Below, piece after piece: positions 4,874 to 14,394 of a stretch of 64,000 nt of DNA (positions within the stretch are counted from its first letter, which is position 1; every line of letters begins with the position of its first letter). The notes beneath the pieces are model-generated. The model was not told the DNA's origin and made no database searches. It worked only from the letters and a program-made list of their open reading frames with translations. This stretch comes from Terriglobia bacterium (GTDB lineage Bacteria > Acidobacteriota > Terriglobia > Bryobacterales > Bryobacteraceae), in contig JANXYJ010000037.1 of NCBI GenBank assembly GCA_025350105.1, positions 1 to 64,000 of the forward strand, in the 5' to 3' direction. The position numbers and the translations under genes were made by a program.

Positions 4874-6811
4874 TCAGCGTTTTGCCATCGCAAAATAGAT
4901 CACTACGGCGATCGCCACTACAATTAATCCTACCAGTCCTAAAATCAACGGCAGGTTCGAAGCGCCAGCGCCGGGGCTATTTCCAACCGGCACAATATTT
5001 CCCCCGGGTGCTGCAACGTCAGGGGTGGCCATCTGTGGCGGGGTTACCGTTACAGGCGGAAACGTGTCCATGGGTATTCGAACCGCCTGGGGTATTCGAA
5101 CCGCCTGGGGTATGGGAACCGCCGGCGCCTGCGTGGGTGGAAGCTGAACTTGCGGCATTTGCATCTGCGGAACTTGCACCTCCGGCAGTTGCACGGGCGG
5201 TAGTTGCGTTGGTCCCGCATGGCTCCCGGGCGAGGAGCCTACCGGCGGAACGGAGCTATGAACTGCTCCCCCCGCTTGGCCCAGCGTCAACTCCGCCGGA
5301 GCCGAAAACATTCGCGTATATTCCCCGGGTCCATTTGCAGCGGGCGGCATTGCTGCGGACGGCGTGGTTGCGGAAGGCGTGGTTGACGGCGAGATGGGAG
5401 ACAACGGCTCCGCAGGCGCCAGGGGTGCAGGTGACGCAAACGCTTGCGTCGCGCTGCCGGTACTGATCCCGCCAGTCGGCGCCGGGCCCGGCACTGCCGA
5501 GCTCATCAGGCCTGCCAGATTCGTCCCCGATAGATCCGGGTTTGCCGGACCCGCCTGAATCCCATCGCGCAGGGCAGCCAAGTCTGTTTGTCCAAACATG
5601 CGCGTGAATTCTCCCGCCTTGTCGCCAGGCGGCGCTGGTGGGACTGACGGAAGCGTCACCGGTAGCTCTACGCTTTGGCTCCCATGCTTCTGCATTGCTG
5701 GAGTTTGCCCTGCTGGAGTTTGCCCTGCTGGGGTTTGAAAGAAGCTTGTAAACTCACCCGGACTTGCTGGTGTAGTGGGACCCGCCTGCGGAACGGGCAA
5801 CACGGGCTCAACAGGCGCGCTCGCTTGTGGTGCATTAACCGGTGGGTTTACGGGCGGACTAGCGAGGGGATTTACAGACGATGGCCTCACTGGCTCCGGT
5901 CCGCGCTGAAACATCCGCGTAAACTCGCCCTGGGCCGATGCCAGCTTTGCCGCCGGTGGCGGTGGCGGACTCGACGATTGGAACATGCGGGTAAATTCGC
6001 CTGGCTCGCCTGCTTTTCGGGGCGCTGGGGCTGGGTTACGCGCATTGCGCGGCGATTCCGCAGGTGACGTCGGCGTAACCGATGCCGATTGAAACATTCG
6101 CGTGAACTCGCCCGCTGGTTTCTCAATCGCGGGTTTTGCCGCGGGGATGTTTTGTGGCGGCGCCTGGAACATTTGCGTGAATTCCGAGGGACCCGCGCCT
6201 GACACCGTTTCCGCAACGGCCTTTACAGGTGTTTCGGAAACTGTGTCCGCAATTACTTCGGCAACCGCGGCGTGCAAACCAGTAGGAGCCGGAATCTCGA
6301 CGGTTGCCAGCAGGTGGCTGGCGTCAGCAACCCCAACTTGTCCGGCCTGGACTGGATTACCGTGTACCGGAGTGTCGTGTACCGGAGTAGGATGAACCTG
6401 TGCCGCCGGAATCTTCCATGCGCCCGCCGCGCCTAAGTCCGACGACGCTGGTGCGCTGCCACTTGCTGGTGGTGCTGGCTCCTCCGCTGGCTTTGCTTTG
6501 GTTGCCGAAAGTAGCCAGTCCTGCAGACTTTTGTGATCCAGCAGCCGGTCGGTAACCAGGTATGGCGTGCCTTCGTTGTTGCCCCGGTGCAAAACCCTGC
6601 GGGCTTCTTCCTCCGGTAACCGGTCCACCGCCTTTAACAAAGCGGCCTGAAGCGGCGCCTTCTGTGACACAAACAAGTGCACCCGCACCGGACGTCCCGT
6701 GGCAATCTCCTTTGCCTCGAACGTCTTCACCCCGTCATCTTTCACCAGATCCAGGAGCTCAAACTGCTCGTAAAAATCCACAAACCTATTATTGCGCGTT
6801 TTATGACCCAT
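4874..6811 (-). CDS. Proline-rich multi-repeat protein with seven GEFTRMF-type motifs and C-terminal TM anchor
   Basis: ORF 4874..7141 trimmed to MGHKTRNNRFVDFYEQF. Repeats SEFTQMFQ/GEFTRMFQ/GEFTSFFQ/GEFTRMFG/GEYTRMFS. C-terminus LPLILGLVGLIVVAIAVVIYFAMAKR. Confidence 0.8.
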   Translation of the reverse strand: MGHKTRNNRFVDFYEQFELLDLVKDDGVKTFEAKEIATGRPVRVHLFVSQKAPLQAALLKAVDRLPEEEARRVLHRGNNEGTPYLVTDRLLDHKSLQDWLLSATKAKPAEEPAPPASGSAPASSDLGAAGAWKIPAAQVHPTPVHDTPVHGNPVQAGQVGVADASHLLATVEIPAPTGLHAAVAEVIADTVSETPVKAVAETVSGAGPSEFTQMFQAPPQNIPAAKPAIEKPAGEFTRMFQSASVTPTSPAESPRNARNPAPAPRKAGEPGEFTRMFQSSSPPPPPAAKLASAQGEFTRMFQRGPEPVRPSSVNPLASPPVNPPVNAPQASAPVEPVLPVPQAGPTTPASPGEFTSFFQTPAGQTPAGQTPAMQKHGSQSVELPVTLPSVPPAPPGDKAGEFTRMFGQTDLAALRDGIQAGPANPDLSGTNLAGLMSSAVPGPAPTGGISTGSATQAFASPAPLAPAEPLSPISPSTTPSATTPSAAMPPAANGPGEYTRMFSAPAELTLGQAGGAVHSSVPPVGSSPGSHAGPTQLPPVQLPEVQVPQMQMPQVQLPPTQAPAVPIPQAVRIPQAVRIPMDTFPPVTVTPPQMATPDVAAPGGNIVPVGNSPGAGASNLPLILGLVGLIVVAIAVVIYFAMAKR

Positions 6812-6898
6812 TCCAGAGCCCAATCCCGGCCGCTTGCTCTTGGGCGGGTAGTTGAGGATACTCGAGAGTATTCTTCTTAGAGTTAGCAAAGGAACGCT

Positions 6899-8302
6899 AT
6901 GCTTCAATCTATCGCCATCGGTTTCTTTGGATGCGCAATCGCCTTCGCCGCCGGCACAACGCCGGTCACTTTCAACAAAGACGTTTTGCCCGTCCTGCAA
7001 AAGAACTGCCAGACCTGCCACCGCCCGGGTCAGGTCGCGCCCATGTCGTTTCTCACCTATCAAAGTACCCGCGCGTGGGCCAAAGCCATGAAGGTAGCCG
7101 TAGCTTCTCGAAAGATGCCGCCCTGGAACGCCGATCCTCATTTCGGGCCGTATCTAAATGACCGATCCCTGAAGCAAGCTGAGATTGACATCATCTCCCA
7201 ATGGGCCGATAACGGCGCCCCCGAGGGCGACGCGAAGGACGCCCCGCCGGCCGCCACATTTGCCGAAGGCTGGATGATCCAGCCCGACGTTGTCATCGAC
7301 GGTCCCGTCACCAAAGTCCCGGCGCATCCCAAGAACGACGTGATTGAATGGAGCACCGTCATCATCCCCACGGGCTTCACGAAGGACACTTGGGTTACTT
7401 CCATCCAAATCAAACCAGAGTTTCCAGAGGTCACCCATCACATTTGCACCGGCTATGTTCCGCATCAAGCGGGCGTGAAATACGGTCTGGCGGTTTGGCT
7501 CGATCGTCCTCGCGACGAAGAAGGCTCGGCAATTCCTGAAAAAGGCGCCACGTTTGCCACGTTGCCCCAGGAAGTGAACCGCATGGATGCCGATTCCGCG
7601 GCGGTTATGCGTGAAAGCGGGCTCCCTGGTGGCGGCGCCCAGGATTGCTATCTTCCGGGCAACCTGGCCGCGGACTACCGTCCGCTGAACGCCGCGAAAT
7701 TGATCCGCGCCGGTTCCGACATCGTGTTCGTGGTTCACTACACCCCCAACGGAACCGAGTTCACTGACCACGCCAAGATCGCCTTTACCGTTGCCAAGGA
7801 ACCGCCGCAGCGCCGCTATGTTTCTTTGTTGATTTCTTCACCGCTCGATCCCAAGCAGTTCGCCATTCCGCCCAACGACGCCAATTGGAAAGCGCCGCCT
7901 GCCGAAGCAACCTTCCAGCAGGACGCCGAACTGGTGTACATGATGCCCCATATGCACGTCCGCGGCAAAGATCAAACCTGGACCCTCGAATTCCCCGACG
8001 GCCGCAAGCAAGTTGTCCTTAGCGTTCCTCGTTATGACTTCAACTGGCAACTGGGCTACGAAAGTTCCATTCGCGTCCCCAAAGGGACGAAGCTGCGTGT
8101 CGACGCGCACTTTGACAATTCGCCCAACAATAAATTCAACCCCAATCCTAATAAAACTGTCTACTACGGCCAAATGACCTGGGAAGAAATGATGTCGCCT
8201 TTCTTCGGTATTGTTGTGAAGAATGACCCTTCGCTCAGAACCGAGGCCGACGAACGCAAACTCATCTCCACGCCGATCGTAATCGGTAGGGGCGGAGGTT
8301 AA
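6899..8302 (+). CDS. c-type cytochrome / copper type II ascorbate-dependent (PHM-like) monooxygenase-type secreted protein
   Basis: Signal peptide, haem motif CQTCH in NCQTCHRPGQVAPMSF, His-rich MMPHMHVRGKDQTW. Confidence 0.8.
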   Translation: MLQSIAIGFFGCAIAFAAGTTPVTFNKDVLPVLQKNCQTCHRPGQVAPMSFLTYQSTRAWAKAMKVAVASRKMPPWNADPHFGPYLNDRSLKQAEIDIISQWADNGAPEGDAKDAPPAATFAEGWMIQPDVVIDGPVTKVPAHPKNDVIEWSTVIIPTGFTKDTWVTSIQIKPEFPEVTHHICTGYVPHQAGVKYGLAVWLDRPRDEEGSAIPEKGATFATLPQEVNRMDADSAAVMRESGLPGGGAQDCYLPGNLAADYRPLNAAKLIRAGSDIVFVVHYTPNGTEFTDHAKIAFTVAKEPPQRRYVSLLISSPLDPKQFAIPPNDANWKAPPAEATFQQDAELVYMMPHMHVRGKDQTWTLEFPDGRKQVVLSVPRYDFNWQLGYESSIRVPKGTKLRVDAHFDNSPNNKFNPNPNKTVYYGQMTWEEMMSPFFGIVVKNDPSLRTEADERKLISTPIVIGRGGG

Positions 8303-8338: not shown

Positions 8339-8851
8339 ATGGAGCCCAACATCCCGGAAGAGCAACCAACGCAAACGCCGAACACCAAGTCCTGTGAAAC
8401 CCGGGTCCGCGTTCGCTACGCCGAAACCGACCAGATGGGCGTGGTCTATTACGCCAACTATCTGGTTTGGATGGAACTCGCGCGCACCGATTATTGCCGC
8501 GCCATGGGGATTCGATATCGCGACATGGAAGTCGACGATGGCATTCTCATTGTCGTCTCCGAAGCGAATTGCCAGTACCGCCGTCCCGCCCGTTATGACG
8601 ACGAAGTCATTGTTACCACTTGGATCTCTGAAGCCAGCACCCGAGGCATGCGCGTGGACTACGACATGCACGAAGCCGTCAGCGGAGGCCGCATCGCCAA
8701 AGGCTATACCAAACACGTCTTCTGCGGCCGCGACGTCAGGCCCATGCGCCTGCCGGAGAAGTATTGGGCGGTGTTTGGGATTGAAGAGAAAACCGCGATA
8801 AAATCAAATTTAGTTTCGGGAGGTGCTTCTGATGGACGGGTTGCAGGCTGA
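8339..8851 (+). CDS. Acyl-CoA thioesterase, YbgC/FadM (4HBT hotdog) family
   Basis: VRVRYAETDQMGVVYYANYLVWMELARTDYCRAMG, the canonical 4HBT motif. Confidence 0.93.
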   Translation: MEPNIPEEQPTQTPNTKSCETRVRVRYAETDQMGVVYYANYLVWMELARTDYCRAMGIRYRDMEVDDGILIVVSEANCQYRRPARYDDEVIVTTWISEASTRGMRVDYDMHEAVSGGRIAKGYTKHVFCGRDVRPMRLPEKYWAVFGIEEKTAIKSNLVSGGASDGRVAG

Positions 8852-9077
8852 ACACATGCTCAAAAAGGCCGGGTATGTGTATAACTATGAACGGGAAATG
8901 TATCTCAATCGGAACGCCAGGAAGGCTTTTAGCATTAATTTCATCGAGGAAAAACCGGAGAACGAAATCGTTCGGGCGTTAAATGAAACCGCTACCAGTG
9001 CTGGTTGGCGGTTTTACTTTACGACGGGAGCGCCGTCACCTTCGATGCAGCAAGAGCTTGAAAAAGTTCTGCGCTAA
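8832..9077 (+). CDS. Small hypothetical protein (81-84 aa), upstream partner of RelA/SpoT-like gene
   Basis: ORF 8823..9077. ATG at 8832 is preceded by GGGAGGT. Stop overlaps the next start as TAATG at 9075-9079. Confidence 0.7.
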   Translation: MDGLQAEHMLKKAGYVYNYEREMYLNRNARKAFSINFIEEKPENEIVRALNETATSAGWRFYFTTGAPSPSMQQELEKVLR

Positions 9078-9712
9078 TGCCTCTCCGCACTGTTGAAGAC
9101 CGGCTGCGCGAACAGTACTTCGATCTGTTGCCCGAAATACGCCGCATCGTTGACGAGATCGATGCTAGGGTTCGTTATGCTCTGCTTCCTATTTCGCAAA
9201 ACCTTTCCGGACATGAACGCCTGGTTGTGAATTCAAGAATTAAATCCTGCGAAAGCTCAATCGACAAACTGCGCCGTCAACAACATGAAGGCGGCACGTT
9301 CGATCCAAGTGCGATCGATGACTATACTCTACTGGCGCTAAAAGATTTGGCAGCCGTTCGCATAATGGCCTTTCCCCGTACACGAATCACCGAGATTGAA
9401 CATGTATTGCGTGGGCAAATTCTCAAATCTTGGGCCCCTGAACCTTTTCGTGAAGGCCCCGCCGTAGGTTTCAAATTCGTCGGAACGTGTTCCCCAAACA
9501 GTGCGGTGCGGGCAGAATACCAAATCGTGCCTCTGCTTACCGGTCTCTTCTGGGAGGTTGAACATGCAGCAATCTATAAGCCAGCAGTTGTGCTGCGCGG
9601 AACAACGACTACCCCGACAATGAAGAGGAAGGCCAATGAAGTATTGCTCGCCCTGCAGGAATTCGAGGCCGCGTTTGTTCACGTACTCAAAGAACGGGAA
9701 GGGCCACCGTAG
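9077..9712 (+). CDS. RelA/SpoT-like nucleotidyltransferase-domain protein (divergent)
   Basis: SRIKSCESSIDKLRRQ, LKDLAAVRIMAF and AEYQIVPLLTGLFWEVEHAAIYKP match the order of RelA_SpoT signatures (RxKxxxSxxxKL, DxAGxRI, ExQI..FWxxxEHxxxYK). Confidence 0.75.
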   Translation: MPLRTVEDRLREQYFDLLPEIRRIVDEIDARVRYALLPISQNLSGHERLVVNSRIKSCESSIDKLRRQQHEGGTFDPSAIDDYTLLALKDLAAVRIMAFPRTRITEIEHVLRGQILKSWAPEPFREGPAVGFKFVGTCSPNSAVRAEYQIVPLLTGLFWEVEHAAIYKPAVVLRGTTTTPTMKRKANEVLLALQEFEAAFVHVLKEREGPP

Positions 9713-9746: not shown

Positions 9747-10913
9747 ATGAGCACTCTTTCCATCCGCGATCTCGACCTGAACGGCAAGCGCGTTTTCATG
9801 CGCGTCGATTTCAATGTGCCGCTGGCCCCTGGCGGCAAAGAAATTACCAGCGACAAGAGAATCAAAGCTTCGCTCCCCAGCATTCAATACGCGCTGGATC
9901 ACGGCGCTGCGCTGATACTCGCCAGCCACCTGGGCCGACCGAAGGGCAAGCCAAATGCCGAAATGAGCTTGGCTCCCGTTGCCGTGCGTCTCGCCGAATT
10001 GCTGAAGAAGCCAGTGGCGATGGCCCCCGATTGCGTTGGCCCACAAGTGCAAGCCCTGCTCCCCAAGCCCGGCGAAGTGCTGCTGCTAGAAAACCTGCGC
10101 TTTCACGCCGAAGAAGAAAAGAACGATCCCGAATTCTCCAAACAACTCGCGGCGCTGTGCGATGTTTATGTGAACGACGCTTTCGGCACAGCCCATCGCG
10201 CCCACGCATCCACGGTAGGAATGATTGCGTACGTCAAACAGGCCGCCGCCGGCCTGCTAATGGACAAAGAGCTCGAATACCTGAACAAAGTCACCAAGAA
10301 TCCCGCGCATCCATGCATCGCGATTCTAGGCGGCGCCAAAGTGTCCGACAAGATCGAGGTCATTCAAAACCTAATGAAAGTGGTGGACCGCCTGTTGATC
10401 GGCGGAGCCATGGCCTACACGTTCCTCCGTGCCCGCGGCGAAAGCACCGGTAAGTCCCTCGTCGAGGAAGATAAGCTTGATCTGGCCCGCGCACTCATGG
10501 CCGCCAGCGGCGACAAACTCATGCTGCCCGTCGATCACGTCGTGGCCGCCGAGTTTAAAGCCGGAGCCGAAAACGAAGTCGTGGACATTGTTCCCGACGG
10601 CAAAATGGGATTGGATATCGGGCCCAAAACGATCGAAAACTTTTCGAAAGTCATTGCCGGCGCCAAAACCATCATCTGGAATGGACCCATGGGGGTTTTC
10701 GAAATGCCTCCCTTCGATAAAGGCACGGTCGCCCTTGCCCACGCCGTTGCGGCATCGGGAGCCGTCAGCCTGGTCGGCGGCGGTGATTCCGAAAAGGCTA
10801 TCAAGAGCGCCGGAGTCGCCGACAAAATCTCCCACATCTCCACCGGAGGCGGCGCCTCGCTGGAGTTTCTGGGCGGAACTGAGTTGCCGGGCGTTCAGGC
10901 GCTGGAGCGGTAA
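9747..10913 (+). CDS. pgk: Phosphoglycerate kinase
   Basis: [55 protein letters not shown]. Confidence 0.98.
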
Positions 10914-10975: not shown

Positions 10976-12556
10976 ATGCGCAACTTTCTATTTCTGACAC
11001 TTGCCGTTTCTGCTTTTGCCCAGAACAAATCCGATTGGCCGCTGTACAACGGTGACTTCGCCGCCACGCGTTTTTCCGCGCTTACTGAGGTCAACAAGAC
11101 AAACGTTGCAGGCCTTCGCAGACTCTGCACTTACGACACCGGCGAAAATGTGGCGTTTCAAACCGGGCCCATCGTCGTGCAGGGCACGATGTACTTCACA
11201 ACGCAGGCCACCACTTATGCCATCAATACCGCCGACTGCTCGTTGAAATGGAAGCAGACCCGTCCCAACAGTGCCGGTGGTTTAGGAGTGAATCGCGGCA
11301 TTGCATTTGCGGACGGCAAACTGTTCCGCGGCACGGGCGATGCGCACGTCATTGGCATGGACGCGGCCACCGGCGCAACTGTTTGGGACACGCCCATCGG
11401 CGACCGCGACAAAGGCGAATCGGTTCCCCTTGCTCCCATCGCCTGGAAGGGCATGGTGTTCGCGGGCAACGCTGGCGGGGACAACTTCGGCGTCACCGGC
11501 CGCGTGTACGGACTGAATGCGGGCGACGGTAAGGAGGTCTGGCACTTCAATATTGCCGCCGACTCTGGCGCTGCCGGGGCCACCTGGAAGAACATCAGCA
11601 AAGATAACCCGGCAACCGGCGGCGCGACCTGGACCAGCTACAGCCTGGATCCTGACGCCGGCGTCCTGTGGGTTTCCAGCGGCAACGTCGCGCCGGATTT
11701 CTTACTCGCCTTGCATCCGGGCGACAATCTCTACACTACTTCCGTCATTGCTCTCGATGCCAAAACCGGCAAACTGCTGCGTTTCGTCCAGCCGGTAAAA
11801 AAAGACTTTCACGATTGGGACATGACCGCACCGCCCGCGCTGATCCGTACAAAAGCGGGGCGCTCCATTGCGGCGGCCGCCGGCAAAGACGGCATTCTTT
11901 ATGGGATTGATCGCAGTGCGGTAAGCGCGGGCAAATCCAGTGATGCTCAGTTGAAGATCCACTACGCCACGCCCGTAACCACGCGGGAAAACGTCAACGC
12001 ACCGTTCACCACAACTGCGGACACGCATTTTTGTCCCGGCGTGCAAGGTGGCGTCGAATGGAACGGACCGGGCTTCAGTCCGCAGTCCAACCTGTTGTTC
12101 GTCAATGCCGTGGATTGGTGTTTCTCGGTGAAAATTGCTGACGCCGGTACCGTGAAGGGCGCGCCCGGTAAATCCTGGTCTGGTTCCGGTGATGCCGCGC
12201 ACGCTTTCGGAACCCCCGATCCCAAAGAGAAGATGGGCGGATGGCTGACCGCCGTCGATGCCGATAGCGGTAAGGTTCGTTGGAAGTACAAATCAAGCCT
12301 ACCGATGGTGGCCGGGGTGACTCCCACCGCCGGAGGGCTGGTGTTTACAGGTGAACTGAACGGCAATGTTTTGGCGCTGGATGGCGAGAGTGGGAAAGTG
12401 CTGTGGCAGGACGCGACCGGATCTGCCGTGGCCGGCGGCGTGATCACCTTTGAACAAAACGGACATCAACGCATTGGGGTAGCGGCTGGCATGCGTTCTC
12501 CCATATGGCCGGTTCCGCAAACCACCGGCCGCGTGATGGTCTATGGGTTGCCTTGA
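10976..12556 (+). CDS. PQQ-binding-like beta-propeller quinoprotein dehydrogenase
   Basis: Signal peptide; WPLYNGDFAATRFSALTEVNKTNVAGL; repeated PQQ propeller motifs (LDAKTGKLL, AVDADSGKVRWKYK, LDGESGKVLWQ). Confidence 0.85.
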   Translation: MRNFLFLTLAVSAFAQNKSDWPLYNGDFAATRFSALTEVNKTNVAGLRRLCTYDTGENVAFQTGPIVVQGTMYFTTQATTYAINTADCSLKWKQTRPNSAGGLGVNRGIAFADGKLFRGTGDAHVIGMDAATGATVWDTPIGDRDKGESVPLAPIAWKGMVFAGNAGGDNFGVTGRVYGLNAGDGKEVWHFNIAADSGAAGATWKNISKDNPATGGATWTSYSLDPDAGVLWVSSGNVAPDFLLALHPGDNLYTTSVIALDAKTGKLLRFVQPVKKDFHDWDMTAPPALIRTKAGRSIAAAAGKDGILYGIDRSAVSAGKSSDAQLKIHYATPVTTRENVNAPFTTTADTHFCPGVQGGVEWNGPGFSPQSNLLFVNAVDWCFSVKIADAGTVKGAPGKSWSGSGDAAHAFGTPDPKEKMGGWLTAVDADSGKVRWKYKSSLPMVAGVTPTAGGLVFTGELNGNVLALDGESGKVLWQDATGSAVAGGVITFEQNGHQRIGVAAGMRSPIWPVPQTTGRVMVYGLP

Positions 12557-12648
12557 TGGGTTGCCTTGAAGGGTTGCCTTGAACCCGGCAGATTGCGGGT
12601 AAGATAGTGATTCAGCCAACTTCTCAGAAACAGGGGAATCCAATCGTG

Positions 12649-14394
12649 ATGAAATCTTTTCAAACTTGCGCGGTCCTGACGATGCTGCTGCCCGGCACCG
12701 CGGCGTTTGCTCAAACGCCCGCGCCCTTCGTGCCCGTAACCGACCAGATGCTGCAGAATCCTGATCCCAACGATTGGCTAATGTGGCGGCGCACGTTAAA
12801 CAGTTGGGGCTATAGTCCGCTAAAGCAAATCGATAGGAAAAACGTGGGCCGTCTGCGGATGCTGTGGACCCGCGGCTTAGGTCCCGGTGTTCAGGAGGGC
12901 ACTCCACTGGTTCACAACGGCGTGCTTTACATGCCGAATCCCAGTGATTTGCTGCAGGCTCTCGACGGCGCAACCGGCCGCTTGCTCTGGGAATATAAGC
13001 GTCCACTGCCCGAAGACATCGGCAAGCATATTCCGTTCCCGGCCATCAATCGCAACGTGGCGATTTACGGCAGCAATATTATCGACACCAGTGCCGACGA
13101 TTTCGTCACAGCCGTGGATGCCACCACTGGCAAGCCTGCTTGGGAAAACCGCATTCTGGACTATCGCGAACTGGCCGCCCAGGAAACCGCGGGGCCGATC
13201 ATCGCGGACGGCAAAATCATTTCCACGCGCGGTTGTGAGCCGAAATCGGGCCCTGATGCCTGCGTGATCACCGCGCACGATGCCAAGACCGGCAAGGAAC
13301 TGTGGCGCCGCCGCACCATTCCGAAACCGGGCGAGCCGGGCGACGAGAGCTGGGGCGGGGTTGCAGATGACAAGCGCTGGCACGTGGGCGCGTGGATGGT
13401 GCCCAGTTATGATCCGGAACTGAAACTGCTGTTCATCGGGACGTCGGTTACTTCGCCTGCGCCTAAATTCATGTTGGCCGGCAATGACAAGAAGTATCTG
13501 TATCACAACTGCACGTTAGCCATTGATGCGGAGACCGGCAAGATTGTTTGGTATTACCAGCACGTCGTCGATCATTGGGATTTCGATCATCCCTTTGAAC
13601 GCTTATTGGTGGATACGGCCGTCGCGCCCGACGCCAGCCAGGTGACCTGGATCAATCCGCGAATTCGTGCTGGTGAAGTACGCAAAGTGGTAACAGGCAT
13701 TCCTGGCAAGACTGGCATCATCTACACACTGGACCGGAAGACCGGTGAGTTCCTGTGGGCCCGTCCCACTGTTCAGCAGAATGTTGTCAGCAAGATTGAC
13801 GGCGCTACCGGCGAAGTGACGGTGAATCCGGAAACTACTTTCACCGCCGCGCGGCAGACCCGCTTTGTCTGCCCCACGGTAAACGGAGGTAAAGGATTCC
13901 AGGCGGGTGCGTACAGTCCACTCACCAATACGATGTATTACGGGCTGCAGAATACCTGCTCGGACGTGACCTCGATTGCAGACAAACCGCAACTGGGCGT
14001 GCTGTATGCCATCCAGAACAAAAACCGCATCGCGCCGGGTACGGACAAAGTGGGCAGTATTTTCGCGGTCAACGCGGAGACGGGCAAGACGACTTGGAAA
14101 TTCGACACGCGCGCGGGGGCGATGTCTTTGGTGGCCACCGGCGGTGGTCTGATTTTTGGCGGCGATACCAGCGGTATGTTCCGTGCGCTTGATCAGGATA
14201 CCGGCAAGGTTCTGTGGGAAGTGAACCTGGGCTCCGCGGTGACAGGCTATCCCATCACGTTTGCCACGGGCGGAAAACAATACGTCGCCGTCAGCACCGG
14301 AACTTCCTTGGTGACCAACGGCCTGAATACGCTGGTACCGGAGGTGAAGCCCAGCGGAACCAACAACCTGTTTGTGTTCGCGCTTCCGGAATAG
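12649..14394 (+). CDS. PQQ-dependent alcohol dehydrogenase-like quinoprotein
   Basis: WLMWRRTLNSWGYSPLKQIDRKNVGRLRMLWTR, PQQ repeats, VVDHWDFDHPFERLLVD. Start moved in from 12607 to the signal-peptide Met. Confidence 0.88.
   Translation: MKSFQTCAVLTMLLPGTAAFAQTPAPFVPVTDQMLQNPDPNDWLMWRRTLNSWGYSPLKQIDRKNVGRLRMLWTRGLGPGVQEGTPLVHNGVLYMPNPSDLLQALDGATGRLLWEYKRPLPEDIGKHIPFPAINRNVAIYGSNIIDTSADDFVTAVDATTGKPAWENRILDYRELAAQETAGPIIADGKIISTRGCEPKSGPDACVITAHDAKTGKELWRRRTIPKPGEPGDESWGGVADDKRWHVGAWMVPSYDPELKLLFIGTSVTSPAPKFMLAGNDKKYLYHNCTLAIDAETGKIVWYYQHVVDHWDFDHPFERLLVDTAVAPDASQVTWINPRIRAGEVRKVVTGIPGKTGIIYTLDRKTGEFLWARPTVQQNVVSKIDGATGEVTVNPETTFTAARQTRFVCPTVNGGKGFQAGAYSPLTNTMYYGLQNTCSDVTSIADKPQLGVLYAIQNKNRIAPGTDKVGSIFAVNAETGKTTWKFDTRAGAMSLVATGGGLIFGGDTSGMFRALDQDTGKVLWEVNLGSAVTGYPITFATGGKQYVAVSTGTSLVTNGLNTLVPEVKPSGTNNLFVFALPE

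Follow-up and report, generated by a model that had tools for sequence, protein, structure and literature searches.

Two overlapping genes in a 64,000-nucleotide stretch of an Acidobacteriota contig (JANXYJ010000037.1, positions 1 to 64,000; hereafter, the window) probably constitute a small, horizontally moving operon of the toxin-antitoxin type that belongs to a toxSAS-like family. Computation recovered the fold of the second gene product, ORF2, together with its intact donor site and altered loop, and established its obligate pairing with the first product, ORF1, the purifying selection on both, and the insertion of the pair.

Among toxSAS enzymes, a single fold can produce alarmones, deplete ATP, or disable tRNA, and the acceptor site and antitoxin determine which. 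A family whose donor site is intact but whose loop is rebuilt and whose partner is unrelated offers a direct test of what determines acceptor choice. In addition, ORF1 contributes a candidate antitoxin fold, and the loci represent small toxin-antitoxin-like cassettes between adjoining Acidobacteriota housekeeping genes, with no visible transposase.

Organization, distribution, and insertion site of the pair

ORF1 (8832..9077, forward strand) encodes a candidate antitoxin or partner of 81 aa with conserved residues L10, Y17, Y24, N26, S34, and W59, and ORF2 (9077..9712, forward strand) encodes a 211-aa divergent RelA/SpoT synthetase-domain protein, the candidate toxin. In the sequence TAATG, the TAA stop codon of ORF1 and the ATG of ORF2 at 9077 share one base. 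This overlap, the gene coordinates, and the motifs were as claimed in an earlier sequence-only reading, which had allowed ORF1 81 to 84 aa. The ATG at 8832 lies 8 nt past a Shine-Dalgarno sequence, GGAGG (8819..8823, forward strand), and the alternative GTG at 8823, which would give 84 aa, overlaps it; the 81-aa version starting at the ATG is the most likely and the GTG start less so. Upstream, at the insertion's left boundary, there is a promoter-like site, TTGGGA-18-TAAAAT (8775..8804, forward strand), a single match against a shuffle mean of 1.1 and weak evidence alone. An exact TATAAT was found <60 bp upstream of ORF1 at 6 of 17 loci (shuffled mean, 0.3; maximum, 3), the window copy having only TAAAAT, and this enrichment makes it probable that a promoter travels with the cassette.

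When 396 Acidobacteriota genomes were searched with ORF2, matches came from four genomes besides that of the window, and one of these was spurious; locus L005, a chance match beside a NUDIX gene, was rejected. A profile scan of GTDB species genomes gave 14 loci, mostly in Acidobacteriota metagenome-assembled genomes (MAGs), with L009 labelled Deltaproteobacteria and L010 Armatimonadetes, and a scan of the window's own order gave 11 of 257 genomes after one weak, unrelated match was left out. In total, the pair was present in 22 genomes with duplicates removed, most of them Acidobacteriota. ORF1 lay directly upstream of ORF2 at 20 of the 22 loci; the two exceptions were L010, whose contig holds only the tail of ORF1, and L018, where a short upstream stretch was unrecognisable. 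Many intact loci had a TAATG or TGATG overlap between the two genes. An independent search of the order with ORF1 returned the identical 11 of 257 genomes, always with the two genes adjacent, which indicates that the pairing is non-random, and no ORF1 without ORF2 was found among the 396 genomes of the phylum. The conserved small partner that the sequence-only reading had proposed to look for is thus present in relatives.

Both ORFs are real genes under purifying selection, with dN/dS values of about 0.11 for ORF1 and about 0.12 for ORF2 between the close relatives L063 and L064. Their distances correlated over 14 loci (r = 0.62; 0 of 5,000 permutations as high). ORF2 of L009, the "Deltaproteobacteria" MAG, was 67% identical to that of L007, an Acidobacteriaceae MAG, which implies either inter-phylum transfer or a binning error. 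ORF2 was broken at about 8 of the 22 loci and ORF1 at one or two, these being MAG contigs with some possible assembly errors and ORF2 being the longer gene. At L068 (1306-1731), ORF2 is broken by about 30 extra codons and then truncated, and the adjacent ORF1 is intact.

Sequence comparison shows that the pair was inserted into clusters of housekeeping genes in soil bacteria. Upstream in the window is a gene for a YbgC-like thioesterase (8339..8851, forward strand) whose usual stop is gone and whose frame now enters ORF1; several relatives terminate just after ...FGI. Downstream is pgk (9747..10913, forward strand), which directly follows ybgC in pair-less relatives. In eight same-genus genomes, ybgC and pgk are adjacent, at most some tens of bp apart, and the pair was missing from all other same-genus genomes listed, so that the earlier suggestion of an insertion between these genes is now backed by empty sites. 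At L017, the pair splits an operon of MTAP and a PfkB-type kinase gene, leaving 982 bp between them, compared with a gap of 14 to 270 bp in 28 of the 29 relatives for which loci were obtained. At L013, the pair also lies behind MTAP, with an ORF2 53% identical to that of L017, reflecting either shared ancestry or a preferred site. The GC content was 0.47 to 0.53 inside the insert versus about 0.57 to 0.60 around it. Both cassettes with mapped empty sites are co-directional within rows of housekeeping genes, and the other neighbourhoods, judged by eye, were mostly different and mostly housekeeping.

No transposase, defence gene, or defence island adjoining the pair was recognised by eye at the copies examined, and searches for ORF2 in plasmids, phages, and IMG/VR viral contigs gave nothing significant. 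A Limnohabitans plasmid protein (26% identity; E = 0.1) was rejected as a relative, being a different and longer protein; this 480-aa, weakly ORF2-like product of plasmid pTEGF4 (L057, 2857-4296) has HigB, PemK/MazF, and VbhA-Fic toxin-antitoxin genes around it. Elsewhere in the window, a 755-aa frame (4874-7141, reverse strand) contains many GEFTRMFQ-like repeats in a Pro/Ala-rich stretch, and two adjacent proteins past pgk (10976-14394; 526 and 595 aa) resemble PQQ-dependent dehydrogenases by eye.

Donor site, acceptor loop, and small partner

ORF2 is, by profile and predicted fold, a divergent RelA/SpoT synthetase. The window protein alone scored 17.9 bits against the Pfam RelA_SpoT profile (E = 0.004), under the cut-off of 27, and neither window protein was recognised by NCBIfam or PADLOC. 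PF04607 (RelA_SpoT), however, was matched by 13 of 14 family members (best E, 9.5e-6), and the family profile retrieved RelP/YwaC and RelQ/YjbM chains from the PDB. Two members matched the YjbM model (best, 6e-5), and 10 gave weak matches to the CapRel-type PDC-S33 (best, 2e-4). The structural check proposed earlier for the 211-aa protein agreed: the AlphaFold model (pLDDT, 88) found its best Foldseek match in Bacillus subtilis SAS1/RelQ (5dec/5f2v; E = 1.3e-6 to about 1e-5; TM up to 0.65/0.74). The genome that carries the window pair also encodes a long Rel of its own, so ORF2 should be dispensable for basic alarmone metabolism.

FaRel2 contacts ATP through R64, K66, S70, K74, R77, D90, R95, E145, and Q147 (PMC11782079), and in alignment these residues map at equal spacing onto ORF2 R54, K56, S60, K64, R67, D90, R95, E147, and Q149. 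The corresponding stretches, all on the forward strand, are the ATP-donor motif R54-x-K56-xxx-S60-xxx-K64-xx-R67 (9236..9277), the catalytic D90 and adenine-contact R95 within DLAAVR (9344..9361), and the motifs E147-x-Q149 and FWEVEHxAIYK (9515..9583). R54, K56, S60, D90, R95, E147, and Q149 were invariant in the 14-member alignment, R67 was nearly so, and K64 was often replaced by Ala. The retention of these FaRel2-equivalent residues indicates that the donor half-site is intact.

The acceptor side is altered. Neither the canonical G-loop YxxxH nor the guanine-binding GYRSxH was found in the ORF2 family, which has KYxG in its place; the family consensus is LAxKYxG, and the window copy reads VGFKFVG (9464..9484, forward strand). 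From KYxG to the catalytic Glu there are 13 to 14 residues, compared with 17 in PhRel2 of phage Lily, 25 in CapRel (Y155 to E180), and 23 in RelQ. Position 134 was Tyr in 13 of the 14 aligned members, and Phe occurred only in the window copy (Phe134, in KFVG) and in L066, a frameshifted copy. With MAFFT and hhalign, Tyr134 aligns with the G-loop Tyr, and counting back from the Glu along the hairpin leads instead to the His. The earlier claim of an altered G-loop thus stands in that YxxxH is replaced and VGFKFVG is present, but its Tyr component does not extend to the family: across the whole family it is the His and the canonical spacing that are missing, and the loss of Tyr is peculiar to this copy. 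Because the substitution Y128F impairs FaRel2 (PMC11782079), the window copy is possibly attenuated; by this analogy its ORF2 may be weakened or dead, and a Tyr-bearing family member is the better test protein.

ORF1 has a predicted structure (pLDDT, 87) composed of a helix, three strands, two helices, a strand, and a helix. No credible match was obtained in Pfam, NCBIfam, PHROGs, the PDB, or viral structures; phrog_6744 was rejected, as it was matched by a single member (6e-4) and not repeated in others. Neither the ATphRel2 antitoxin nor CapRel was matched by hhalign. Among the known toxSAS antitoxin types, namely, pZFD with YXXY, PanA/PAD1, Tis1-like, and SAH, none matched ORF1, with Tis1 and SAH covered through the Pfam and PDB searches. 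The YXXY-type pZFD in particular was discarded in view of a strand order unlike that of ATfaRel2 and the lack of a Foldseek match. With ORF1 unclassified and dissimilar to known toxSAS antitoxins, the label "antitoxin" derives from operon logic.

Proposed mechanism and alternatives

We infer the catalysis and toxicity of ORF2, its neutralisation by ORF1, and the trigger as follows. ORF2 would be a pyrophosphokinase with a single RelA/SpoT-fold domain: ATP would occupy the standard donor site, pyrophosphate would pass to an acceptor held by the shortened KYxG-type loop, and this activity, if unchecked, would arrest growth. ORF1, which is translated first from the shared transcript and is translationally coupled to ORF2, would form a complex with ORF2 and block its activity until a trigger such as phage infection set it free. 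As for the acceptor, the sequences make us lean slightly toward a free nucleotide over tRNA. FaRel2 has a basic N terminus with the tRNA-binding residues K28/R29, whereas that of the ORF2 family is acidic overall: the first 40 residues were net negative in 14 of 14 members, as charge summed over the whole stretch. The pZFD antitoxins are linked to tRNA-modifying toxSASs, and by the rule given in the same paper an antitoxin that plugs the donor site points to a tRNA-type enzyme and one that plugs the acceptor site to an alarmone-type enzyme (PMC11782079). The acidic N terminus and a partner that is not a pZFD and is unrelated to the antitoxins of those tRNA-modifying toxSASs with which it was compared are mild evidence against the earlier guess of tRNA-CCA.

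The obligate coupled pair, the single RSH synthetase domain with its donor residues, the patchy spread, and the frequent broken copies all fit a toxin-antitoxin operon. Against it stand the dissimilarity of ORF1 to known toxSAS antitoxins, the absence of YxxxH, Phe134 in the window copy, the lack of plasmid, phage, or viral copies and of a defence island, and the fact that the closest solved relatives, RelQ and RelP, are non-toxic. These two top fold and profile matches, the resemblance of FW-x-VEH-x-A-x-YK to the SAS motif, and the co-directional position of the two mapped cassettes in housekeeping rows would also suit a mobile stress-response cassette in which ORF2, in the manner of RelP and RelQ, would synthesise a nucleotide resembling (p)ppGpp, with ORF1 acting as a sensor or regulatory subunit. 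However, we consider such a non-toxic alarmone synthetase module unlikely, given that the family lacks the GYRSxH guanine loop, its hairpin has 13 to 14 residues versus 23 in RelQ, and the pair is patchy, mobile, often broken, and tied to an obligate small partner.

The family-wide loss of the YxxxH His, along with Phe134 in the window copy, could instead mean that ORF2 has kept its ATP site, lost pyrophosphate transfer, and become a regulator in a nucleotide-sensing complex with ORF1; D90 and E147, however, were invariant in 14 of 14 aligned members, which would be odd for a dead enzyme and makes this proposal improbable. Less probable still is an abortive-infection defence unit with ORF1 as phage sensor or activator rather than antitoxin: the distant relative CapRel is a phage-triggered toxSAS (PMC9712102) and PDC-S33 was weakly matched, yet no defence genes were recognised beside the copies examined and no phage linkage was found. 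Within the favoured reading of a toxSAS-like toxin-antitoxin operon, we put forward only tentatively the more specific possibility of a RelA/SpoT-fold toxin subfamily that, through its compact KYxG loop, pyrophosphorylates an acceptor outside those known for toxSASs, is neutralised by an undescribed antitoxin fold, and enters housekeeping clusters as a cassette of about 0.95 kb with no accompanying genes.

Comparison with known systems

Like the 12 SAS subgroups of Atkinson et al. 2011 (PMC3153485), ORF2 is a synthetase-only RSH protein; in the accessible part of that survey, none of the subgroups is described with an ORF1-like partner, and the portion of its table concerned gives only Rel for Solibacteres and divRel for Koribacter. 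A literature search found no paper tying SASs, toxins, and Acidobacteria together, although the main 2020 toxSAS survey may have listed the family earlier. The nearest relative found outside the family is a 374-aa single-gene RelA/SpoT-like protein of Acidobacteriota (L070, 973-2097, reverse strand; hhalign E = 4e-8); with a YRATH loop and no ORF1, it was excluded as a member.

RelQ/SAS1 (YjbM) and RelP (YwaC), the best structural and profile matches, share with ORF2 the FWxxxEHxxxYK motif and the C-terminal helices, but ORF2 differs in lacking GYRSxH and in its much shorter hairpin, obligate small partner, and mobility. CapRel of Salmonella phage SJ46 (PADLOC PDC-S33) weakly resembles the donor half of ORF2 in profile comparisons, and its GYSG loop aligns with the KYxG of the family. 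CapRel, however, is one fused 373-aa protein with YxxxH (Y155) and a pZFD, whereas here there are two proteins and no recognised pZFD. The toxins of FaRel2/ATfaRel2 and PhRel2/ATphRel2 are, like ORF2, RelA/SpoT synthetases with one domain and about 200 aa. The acceptor loop of ORF2 is shorter than those of FaRel2 and PhRel2 and lacks YxxxH, and ORF1 has no sequence relationship to ATphRel2, retrieved no PDB chain by fold search, and differs in strand/helix order from the ATfaRel2 pZFD. Nevertheless, a partner gene, complete ATP-donor residues, and sporadic spread are common to these toxSAS operons and the present pair, and the conserved adjacent partner supports the original suggestion of a two-gene module of the toxSAS toxin-antitoxin kind.
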